DNA from: Thioclava atlantica
GTDB lineage: Bacteria > Pseudomonadota > Alphaproteobacteria > Rhodobacterales > Rhodobacteraceae
Direction of reading: 5' to 3'
Assembly (NCBI RefSeq): GCF_000737065.1
Contig: NZ_AQRC01000007.1
Coordinates: 124,001 to 188,000 of the forward strand
DNA: 64,000 bases
Shown: positions 4,823-26,485 of the stretch, one piece after another
Position numbering within the stretch: position 1 is the first letter of the stretch
Layout of the letters: each line of letters opens with the position of its first letter
Translations under genes and position numbers: made by a program
The notes under the pieces: model-generated
The model's input: the letters and a program-made list of their open reading frames with translations, nothing else
Databases searched by the model: none
What the model was told of the DNA's origin: nothing

Positions 4823-4935
4823 GCGCTCCCGTTACGCGAAGCCGGGAAATCCGGCATGCGAAAGAGGTCCGTTGTATTGACACTGGAACCCTGCCCCGCC
4901 CCGCGCTAGCGTCGGGGAAACTGCGGGAGGGAACG

Positions 4936-5882: not shown

Positions 5883-7028
5883 ATGGATTACGCGCTCAGC
5901 GAGGAACAGCAGGCCATTTTCGACATGGCCCATGCCTTCGGGCAGGATGAGATCGCGCCCCATGCGGCGGATTGGGAAGGGGCCGGCACGATCCCGAAGG
6001 AGCTTTGGCCCAAGGTCGCGGAGCTGGGGCTGGGCGGGATCTACGTCTCCGAGGAGTATGGCGGCTCGGGCCTGTCGCGCCTCGATGCGACGCTCGTCTT
6101 CGAGGCGCTCGCGATGGCCTGCCCCGCCGTGGGCTCGTTCCTGTCGATCCACAACATGTGCGGCGGGATGATCGACAAGTTCGGCACCGAGGAGGACAAG
6201 GCGCGCTGGCTGCCCGACCTCACCAGCATGACCAAGATCTTCTCCTATTGCCTGACCGAGCCGGGATCGGGTTCGGACGCGGCGGCTTTGCGCACCCGCG
6301 CCCAACGCACCAATGAGGGCTGGAAGCTCAACGGCACCAAGGCCTTCATCTCGGGCGGCGGCTATTCGGATGTCTATGTGACGATGGTGCGCTCGGGCGG
6401 CGACGGGCCGAAGGGCATCTCGACGATCGTCGTCGAGGATGGCACCGCGGGGCTCAGCTTCGGCGCGCTCGAGAAGAAGATGGGCTGGAAGGCGCAGCCC
6501 ACCGCGCAGGTGCAATTCGACGATTGCGTGGTCCCGGCCGAGAACCTGCTGGGCGAGGAAGGCCGCGGTTTCGCCTATGCGATGGCGGGTCTCGATGGCG
6601 GGCGTCTCAACATCGCGGCCTCGGCGCTCGGCGGCGCGCAGACCGCGCTGAACCAGACGCTGAGCTATATGGGCGAGCGCAAGGCGTTCGGCAAATCGCT
6701 CGACCAGTTCCAGGCGCTGCAATTCCGCCTCGCCGAGATGGAGGTGAAGCTGCAATCGGCCCGCACCTTCCTGCGCCAGGCCGCGTGGAAGCTCGACAAC
6801 AAGACCCCCGACGCGACCAAGTTCTGCGCGATGGCCAAACTCTACGTGACCGATGCCGCATTCGAGGTGGCCAATCAGTGCCTGCAATTGCATGGTGGCT
6901 ACGGATACCTTGCCGATTACGGGATCGAGAAGATCGTGCGCGACCTGCGCGTGCACCAGATCCTCGAAGGCACCAACGAGATCATGCGGCTGATCGTGAG
7001 CCGCGCGATGCTGGCGGAACGGGGCTGA
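5883..7028 (+). CDS. Acyl-CoA dehydrogenase, probably isobutyryl-CoA dehydrogenase
   Basis: 381 aa FAD enzyme that oxidises acyl-CoA to the 2-enoyl-CoA. Start is the ATG at 5883 (MDYALSEEQQ) behind GGGGGAGGAG. Visible family features: the FAD-binding stretch FSYCLTEPGSGSDA, the C-terminal HGGYGY and the catalytic-base region LEGTNEIMR. With 3-hydroxyisobutyryl-CoA hydrolase and 3-hydroxyisobutyrate dehydrogenase immediately downstream, the likely substrate is isobutyryl-CoA in valine breakdown (isobutyryl-CoA to methacrylyl-CoA). The context makes this specificity likely; the sequence alone would not separate it from short-chain acyl-CoA dehydrogenases. The next gene starts 1 nt after the stop. 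Confidence 0.9.
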   Translation: MDYALSEEQQAIFDMAHAFGQDEIAPHAADWEGAGTIPKELWPKVAELGLGGIYVSEEYGGSGLSRLDATLVFEALAMACPAVGSFLSIHNMCGGMIDKFGTEEDKARWLPDLTSMTKIFSYCLTEPGSGSDAAALRTRAQRTNEGWKLNGTKAFISGGGYSDVYVTMVRSGGDGPKGISTIVVEDGTAGLSFGALEKKMGWKAQPTAQVQFDDCVVPAENLLGEEGRGFAYAMAGLDGGRLNIAASALGGAQTALNQTLSYMGERKAFGKSLDQFQALQFRLAEMEVKLQSARTFLRQAAWKLDNKTPDATKFCAMAKLYVTDAAFEVANQCLQLHGGYGYLADYGIEKIVRDLRVHQILEGTNEIMRLIVSRAMLAERG

Positions 7029-25482: not shown

Positions 25483-25507
25483 GCCCCGGCAAGAGCCAGA
25501 GCGGATG

Positions 25508-25536
25508 AGGGCGGCCTCTCGAGGCCGCCCTTTTTC
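25508..25536 (+). terminator. Rho-independent terminator after bactofilin
   Basis: AGGGCGGCCTC / GAGGCCGCCCT, then TTTTTC. The stem can also fold with a larger loop. 26 bp after the stop. Confidence 0.9.
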
Positions 25537-25557
25537 TTTGTCGCGCGGGTCTGACGT

Positions 25558-25598: not shown

Positions 25599-25680
25599 CG
25601 GTCATTCGGTCAATATCGAAGACAACCCACAGGCGCTGGTGCGCGGCTTGGACGGAAAAAGAAAGTAGTGTCCGCAAATC

Positions 25681-26040
25681 GTGTTGGCCCTCTTCGTTTT
25701 TGGCATAAATGGCCAATATTATTCGGCTTCTAGAAAGAAGCCGAAATTGCATCAGCACGAATTTATCCAGTTCCTCACGCATTTTGATTTGCTGGCCCCT
25801 GCGCAGATTGAAAAAGCAAGAGCTCGGATTTCCGATGTTCGCAGGAGGAATGAGGCACTCGCTCAAATCGAGGGAGGTGGCGCTCGTGAATGTCCTCGCT
25901 GCGGTAGCGGCAAGCGCCTAAGATGGGACAAGATGCGCACGAATGTGCAGCGCTACCGTTGTGGTAGCTGTAAAAAGACCTTCACTGGACGCAATGGCAC
26001 CCGGATTGCGCACATTCATCGGCCAGGACTGTTCTTTGAT
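25681..26040 (+). pseudogene. Truncated transposase, N-terminal zinc-ribbon part (IS1595-like)
   Basis: The frame encodes LHQHEFIQFLTHFD, an Arg/Ala helix region (EKARARISDVRRR), a zinc ribbon CPRCG...RYRCGSCKKTF (four cysteines) and then TFTGRNGTRIAHIHRPGLFFD. These are features of the DNA-binding N-terminus of IS1595-type transposases. After about 26040 the similarity ends and the frame (open to 26181) runs antisense to the neighbouring membrane-protein gene. The catalytic DDE/N domain is wholly absent, so it cannot transpose by itself. No convincing start codon is present; GTG at 25681 lies within the left inverted repeat. Family assignment is from memory of the motif pattern. Confidence 0.65.
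25722..25745. repeat. Hairpin TTCGGCTTC-N6-GAAGCCGAA inside the mobile element
   Basis: Perfect 9-bp arms with 6-base loop TAGAAA, 33 bp inside the left terminal repeat. Could restrict read-through from outside promoters or be a transposase site. Confidence 0.4.
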
Positions 26041-26049
26041 CGGTCAGGT

Positions 26050-26334
26050 TCAGGTTGCACCACGGATGAAGCGTATGACCCCAAGAAGGATGAGCCCGAT
26101 TGGAATCCAGAGAAAAACACCCAGCAAGTAAAATCCCAGCGACCAAAGCGGGTAGATGTATTCGCCGACATCCATTCCTAAGAATAGGCATTCTTCAGGG
26201 CCTCTTGCCCATATCTTGCAGCCATTAAGCCGGGCAAGTTGAGCGACGAAGAAGCCGATGAGCCAAAGGCCAGCCGGCCAAAGAACCACTATTAAGGCGA
26301 GAGATGTGGAAACCCTGTCATTCTTGTCTTCCAT
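26050..26334 (-). CDS. Small membrane protein of unknown function, passenger of the mobile element
   Basis: 94 aa from the ATG at 26334 (a GTG at 26346 is also in frame). Two or three hydrophobic segments: STSLALIVVLWPAGLWLIGF, and a C-terminal pair around YPLWSLGFYLLGVFLWIPIG and LILLGVIRF. Between them is an extracytoplasmic-type loop with two cysteines (NGCKIWARGPEECLFLGMD, then VGEYIYP). The Cys...Cys-(V/L)-G-x-D-x-G-x-x-(I/L)-Y pattern looks familiar from short hypothetical membrane proteins, but I cannot name a function. It lies wholly between the element's inverted repeats. No clear ribosome-binding site. Confidence 0.6.
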   Translation of the reverse strand: MEDKNDRVSTSLALIVVLWPAGLWLIGFFVAQLARLNGCKIWARGPEECLFLGMDVGEYIYPLWSLGFYLLGVFLWIPIGLILLGVIRFIRGAT

Positions 26335-26485
26335 GCCAACTGCCACCGAAATCTGGTTTAGTGGTGCATCAAGTTAGCCAGACGCCACGAAACCACAAGA
26401 TGCCTTAAACAGACCCACACGATATGCAGACACTACCAAAAAGAAAGACGCGTCGCGTGGAAACCCACGGACGCGTCAGTCTGAA

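Follow-up and report, generated by a model that had tools for sequence, protein, structure and literature searches.

A short segment of the Thioclava atlantica genome bears two inverted ends, the beginning of a transposase gene and, in opposite orientation, a gene for a small membrane protein. The locus raises the question of what kind of element this is, how a passenger gene came to stand beside an incomplete transposase, and why the element lies where it does. The whole stretch of DNA that was analysed, called the window, has 64,000 nucleotides (assembly GCF_000737065.1, contig NZ_AQRC01000007.1, positions 124,001 to 188,000). We give a probability of about 0.78 to the reading that the segment is a deleted, non-autonomous, cargo-carrying copy of an IS1595 element, whose lineage would insert by DDE transposition (a mechanism taken from the family), duplicate 8 bp of its target and favour A/T octamers and, among these, the T-tracts of intrinsic transcription terminators. 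The features are listed below, where G559 and G071 denote genomes of other genera that hold longer copies.

25656–25663, no strand: left copy of the target duplication, AAAAAGAA (sequence; in register with relatives)
25664–25689, plus strand: left terminal inverted repeat (sequence, end-pattern scan, relatives)
25747–26034, plus strand: N-terminal remainder of an IS1595-family transposase, frame open to 26181 (open reading frame, zinc-ribbon match, relatives)
26034–26035, no strand: junction of the internal deletion, at which 729 bases of the G559 copy and 679 of the G071 copy are missing (alignment)
26050–26334, minus strand: passenger gene, 94-aa predicted two-helix membrane protein with two conserved cysteines (open reading frame, alignment, relatives)
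26412–26437, minus strand: right terminal inverted repeat (sequence, end-pattern scan, relatives)
26438–26445, no strand: right copy of the target duplication, which on the minus strand forms the host terminator's T-tract (sequence, congeners)
26438–26477, minus strand: predicted intrinsic terminator of the host downstream of dctM, hairpin at 26447–26477 and then the T-tract (folding, congeners)

Comparison with full-length relatives places the element at 25664–26437 (774 bp). Direct reading of the sequence agreed with the sequence-only reading that the inverted ends (25665–25689 and 26412–26436) match at 21 of 25 positions, and the ends, of the form (A/G)GTAGTGTC, shift its boundaries by one base. 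That reading had also described a 10-mer repeated just outside the ends; the duplication is real and has 8 bp, not 10, with AAAAAGAA at 25656–25663 and again at 26438–26445, because the extra AG belongs on one side to the left end of the element and on the other to host DNA. Relatives likewise have 8-bp duplications. The right end starts with GG and the left end with AG, and GG is found at both ends in 43 of 59 IS1595-type elements. The lower GC content, noticed from the start, amounts to 0.512 for the element, and the two flanking 3-kb stretches have 0.643 and 0.633. When the 3.93-Mb genome was scanned with a 20-base degenerate end pattern at up to three mismatches, four matches were obtained, two per element, and none with the reversed control.

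With regard to the insertion site, the convergent neighbours of the element are genes that we take, from their reading frames, to be a bactofilin gene and dctM of a TRAP transporter. The fold of 67 nt of minus strand at the putative dctM terminator has an energy of -29.6 kcal/mol (z -5.3 relative to shuffled sequences), and this hairpin is the strongest among 50 scored sites. A simple terminator scan with a pattern that admits no bulge did not list it, and we counted this result against the terminator reading. A sigma-70 promoter scan found none. The sequence-only reading had looked to close strains for an empty site, and such a site does exist: 5 of 15 other congeners (G006, G007, G010, G013 and G015) keep the bactofilin gene, the hairpin and dctM together without the element, with a matching hairpin and an A-rich tract. 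Two more congeners (G001 and G003) keep hairpin and tract, with no bactofilin match in the stretch compared. Since hairpin and tract are conserved in congeners that lack the element, the terminator predates the insertion. Moreover, because the T-tract was duplicated, the hairpin keeps a tract beside it once the element is in place, so that the insertion should cost the host little, and termination is probably still functional. The left gene has a terminator-like site of its own at 25507–25540, with the same kind of T-tract; the element occupies the opposing dctM terminator and not this one. The locus is thus a clear example, because longer copies, an empty site and a terminator are all at hand.

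Target sites across relatives

To this one site we can add those of relatives. The 112 loci were searched for paired ends and target duplications with no consensus used. Duplicates (11), loci without acceptable paired ends (39) and four loci whose ends were judged by eye not to be IS1595-like (L026, L047, L092 and L108) were set aside, which leaves 59 elements with the window's own. One of the 39, L112, looks real by eye and returned in the follow-up as L222.

Duplications with at least seven A/T among eight positions are found in 47 of the 59 elements, window included, versus 1.0% of flank octamers. A divergent clade of eight elements (L039, L084, L088, L091, L094, L099, L104 and L105, with ends such as GGCGGTGTCAGC) contributes none; outside it, 47 of 51 reach seven and all 51 have at least six. 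We regard this clade as a likely switch in target taste within the family.

At 19 of the 50 sites that could be scored, the T side adjoins a hairpin of -12 kcal/mol or stronger; among 285 flank positions with identical octamers, 23 do so (Fisher, 2.9e-7). The other nine elements were left out, having fewer than six A/T or neither a clear A side nor a clear T side. The opposite side gave 5/50 in the same test, and random flank positions reach -12 kcal/mol in 8.4% of cases, about the control rate. At thresholds of -8, -10, -12 and -15 kcal/mol, 23, 23, 19 and 13 of the 50 sites qualified, and 51, 37, 23 and 13 of the 285 controls. When genes were called by third-position GC, the intergenic sites alone gave 16/34 versus 11/174 (p 3e-8); genic sites gave 3/16 versus 8/105, no significant excess. 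An earlier and cruder gene caller, which wrongly put the window site as genic, gave 7/20 versus 8/60 for intergenic sites (p 0.047) and 12/30 versus 11/219 for "genic" ones. In this sample the excess of terminators is statistically clear. It follows no rule of orientation, a candidate that we dropped, as the 19 hairpins split into 10 on the right and 9 on the left. With 31 of 50 targets lacking a hairpin at the -12 threshold, A/T content is the stronger rule.

The two longer copies of the window's element differ in this respect. The G559 copy, which is outside the 59, also adjoins a hairpin, AAAAAGGCGGCATC-CGAA-GATGCCGCCTTTT; the G071 copy (L103, among the 59) has no hairpin on the expected side. 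A small follow-up, weak in its outcome and counted against the reading, added seven elements, four of them with octamers of at least six A/T and two of those four with a hairpin; in L222 a strong hairpin stands solely on the unexpected side. Relatives in Pseudomonas supplied four further usable elements and five plasmid records one new element (L259), while viral contigs, searched with the transposase alignment, yielded 17 loci, most of them distant, and no additional usable element. Four loci were excluded by eye in this follow-up, L179 as the same site as L100, and L200, L211 and L260 for unconvincing ends. In the right flanks of L051 (by scan) and L095 (by eye), a second element end starts just beyond the target duplication, which would suit successive use of one tract by two elements.

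Two accounts of these sites have to be weighed. In one, the transposase only likes A/T octamers, and terminators are simply the A/T tracts of GC-rich genomes at which insertion harms least, insertions elsewhere having been lost. We think this has a real chance of being correct, somewhat short of even. No other signal comes near the A/T preference in strength, to the point that no element outside the divergent clade departs from it, and ISApl4 uses A/T octamers, 16 of its 35 sites being intragenic, according to the available part of its report (PMC12561309). On the other hand, the hairpin excess persists against identical octamers when only intergenic sites are compared, though promoters may have been purged from the survivors.

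The other account goes further, and we put it forward tentatively, as something that may well prove wrong. A branch of IS1595 would read terminators themselves, each a GC hairpin with a T-tract after it, as places to land, and harmless landing would enable a freely exchanged cargo, held in a single slot, across alphaproteobacteria, in the manner of a cassette system without integrase. The 8-bp duplication would copy the T-tract, and the element would enter without breaking termination or any gene. The exchanged cargo would include toxin-antitoxin pairs, acetyltransferases, transporters, immunity-like proteins and small membrane proteins. Against the main reading, given at the outset, we counted that no match to the passenger lies in the nearest intact sibling of the window's element, L087, and that two of four element-borne passenger copies are broken. 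In that reading the terminator excess would come from the transposase rather than from survival.

The passenger and the cargo of relatives

The 94-aa frame with two cysteines lies, as described from the sequence, at 26334–26053 on the minus strand, and an upstream GTG would extend it to 98 aa. The predicted protein has two hydrophobic stretches with the two cysteines between them, and P20, G38, C39, G45, C49 and L63 are invariant in nine aligned members, window included. It has nothing in NCBIfam, only a chance-level match in Pfam (E 0.24) and no match among PDB sequences, and no match was found in plasmids or in viral contigs.

When the proteins of 390 genomes of the order were searched, the passenger turned up in G559, 94–95% identical in amino acids and within the same element. 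That the same passenger stands at different sites in three genera is only indirect evidence of its movement. The passenger copy in G071 is frameshifted. That genome also has a second, truncated copy (L012:154–543), with a right end, no transposase and a passenger that is 76% identical and has one stop. Relatives of the passenger in G366, G602, G190, G326, G469, G332 and G401 have no transposase match in the stretch examined and presumably adjoin ordinary chromosomal genes, as judged from reading frames; a member of the family at L136:3188–3481 lies between what we take to be hisA and hisF.

Between the window and G559, the passenger differs by 15 synonymous and 6 non-synonymous changes. The dN/dS is about 0.11 in this pair and likewise between the window and G071 (p 7e-6 and 6e-6 for the deficit of non-synonymous changes), and the N-terminal part of the transposase gives 0.29 between the window and G559. 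Such apparent purifying selection would fit a gene useful to somebody. We infer that a role in the membrane accounts for the retention of the passenger, and the likeliest account is that it is a captured chromosomal small membrane protein, kept for the cell envelope. It is also possible, if on the less probable side, that the passenger is neutral ballast, the low dN/dS coming from unsampled copies or from the chromosomal family before capture. The broken frames in two of the four element-borne copies and a dN/dS of 0.30 between G559 and G071 would be expected of ballast; the two low ratios that involve the window, and the unbroken frames of both the window and G559, argue against it. The suggestion that the passenger is a selfish or protective factor found no direct support, PADLOC giving no match for it.

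With the window, 41 of the 59 elements carry an open reading frame of at least 65 aa outside the transposase (40 of the 58 others), and 38 of those 58 have one of at least 95 aa, the frames being called mechanically. The cargo sits in one slot, between the transposase and the right end. All-against-all blastp found only four related pairs, although some cargo shares a Pfam family despite this (Imm11, DUF4440, GNAT, LysR and MFS). Among 50 scanned frames of at least 95 aa, out of 53 listed ones that leave out L039, L103 and elements below 44% identity such as L113, 29 have a Pfam match at E up to 0.001. The families include NUDIX, GNAT, glyoxalase, LysE, MFS and APH, as well as LysR, AraC, TetR, ArsR, RelE, Gp49 with HTH partners, Imm11 and DUF4440. 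The cargo of L063, L065, L067, L054 and L075 includes RelE/Gp49-type toxin-antitoxin pairs and Imm11-like proteins. Capture of cargo by way of an old internal right end was considered and rejected, since none of the 59 elements has internal copies of its own ends at up to four mismatches.

Loss of the transposase core

The remnant of the transposase starts with TTG, where the G559 and G071 copies have ATG. Its zinc ribbon, at about 25891–25989, had been recognised from four cysteines and matches the NCBIfam profile NF050000 (IS1_IS1595_Zn; E 1.4e-7, 31.9 bits, cut-off 28), the Pfam ribbon PF12760 scoring 22.6, under its cut-off of 25.4. The catalytic domain had been described as absent, and searches with Pfam and NCBIfam profiles gave no match for it in the window copy. 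As no IS1595-type DDE domain was matched there, we file this copy as a deleted derivative and not as a full IS1595 member. Relatives do match the IS1595 transposase profile NF033547 (cut-off 75), with 124.1 bits for the own-genome relative P0003 and 137.8 for L087; on PF12762 (cut-off 27), L087 scores 32.0 and P0003 21.0, which is under the cut-off.

The nearest intact sibling, L087 of Phaeobacter italicus, has an unbroken 329-aa IS1595 transposase and is 88.6% identical in nucleotides to the left arm of the window's element; no passenger match lies inside it. The window groups with L087, L103 and L141 at 100% SH-aLRT, in a tree of a quick kind that carries a long-branch warning and in which the window fills only 29% of the columns. 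By eye, L087 is associated with a 20-nt direct repeat (4898–4917 and 6238–6257), and its right end looks overwritten by a copy of the half of the host terminator that flanks its left end.

The view of this locus as a small non-autonomous element, for which a relative elsewhere in the genome was expected, holds up: the genome has one related full-length element, a distant IS1595, and no second copy of the window's own. A short multi-copy derivative without coding sequence (MITE) was considered and set aside, as there is a single copy with an intact passenger frame. The related element, on C1 (L010), carries NUDIX and GNAT genes as cargo in addition to an intact transposase frame of 331 aa, and its target duplication is AAAAGAAA. 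That its transposase mobilised the window's element, already deleted, seems unlikely to us. Its intact frame and its ends, two and three mismatches from the end pattern, would suit such a role, but the shared part of the transposase is only about 49% identical, a single deleted copy is present, and the deletion could postdate the insertion.

The deletion itself emerges from comparison with longer elements in other genera, which bear the same kind of ends as the window's element. Searched at the DNA level, 121 genomes yielded the same element once more, in G071. The window aligns with the G559 copy, whose ends were placed by eye as there is an indel, at 89.2% nucleotide identity over 760 columns with one gap of 729 bases, and with the G071 copy at 87.7% over 741 columns with one gap of 679 bases. 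The transposase is damaged in both, by stops in G559 and by broken frames in G071. As these copies hold core and passenger and the window has one large gap, the window copy is, on this alignment evidence, an internally deleted IS1595-family element that lacks about 730 bp of transposase core, and the passenger was aboard beforehand. The sequence-only reading, that the passenger had taken the place of the core, is natural from the window alone, in which the passenger occupies the expected position of the core, but is scarcely credible given that G559 and G071 carry the same passenger beside and downstream of the transposase core in unchanged order, the window departing from them by a deletion at about 26034.

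Comparison with known systems

The IS1595 family comprises the groups IS1016, ISPna2, ISH4, IS1595, ISSod11, ISNwi and ISNha5, and has 8-bp duplications and a zinc ribbon (PMC8101967, as far as available). The window's element shares the N-terminal zinc ribbon and the 8-bp duplication, and its relatives the DDE domain; it differs in having no catalytic core, and a terminator bias does not appear in the available part of that description. IS copies with passenger genes have been named Transporter IS (Siguier et al. 2009, as cited in the available text of PMC3129680). The likeness is close, in that the ends of an otherwise simple IS enclose the 94-aa gene, a passenger that has nothing to do with transposition; what differs from that text is that a single slot is filled in 41 of 59 elements here by a frame of 65 aa or more, and that blastp relates no more than four pairs. 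The window's element itself is thus of an ordinary kind, a deleted transporter-type IS1595 copy, and both cargo in IS1595 elements and A/T-rich duplications are already known. Other relevant elements have been reported in Paracoccus (PMC3281130) and Ralstonia (PMC7371123), together with an IS66 element with a passenger (PMC12888890), each source being available in part.

Our literature searches found no report of a terminator preference in IS1595 elements. ISApl4, of the IS1016 group, has A/T-rich 8-bp duplications, one of them identical to AAAAAGAA, and 19 of its 35 tabulated sites are non-coding; unlike most of the elements studied here, it is a 712-bp element without cargo (PMC12561309, available part), and the word "terminator" has no occurrence in the main text of that paper. 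A large survey, available in part, found IS1595 over-represented between co-directional genes (PMC9208149), which we counted against the terminator explanation. Transposition of the related IS1 drops when a terminator blocks upstream transcription (PMC12428005, in its available part), a result relevant to how an insertion next to a terminator could affect expression of the transposase.

Finally, insertion on the upstream side of promoters is reported for TnGBS, ISLre2 and some ISKra4 elements (PMC3942029, in the part available). Like the elements studied here, they are DDE elements biased to a harmless intergenic landmark; they differ in belonging to the Mutator-like transposase superfamily and in using the promoter side, not the terminator. 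If terminators are indeed read by this branch of IS1595, there would be a directly testable landing rule for a widespread IS family, which would be the counterpart of the promoter-side insertion of TnGBS and ISLre2 and would suggest how simple IS elements afford a large and changing cargo.
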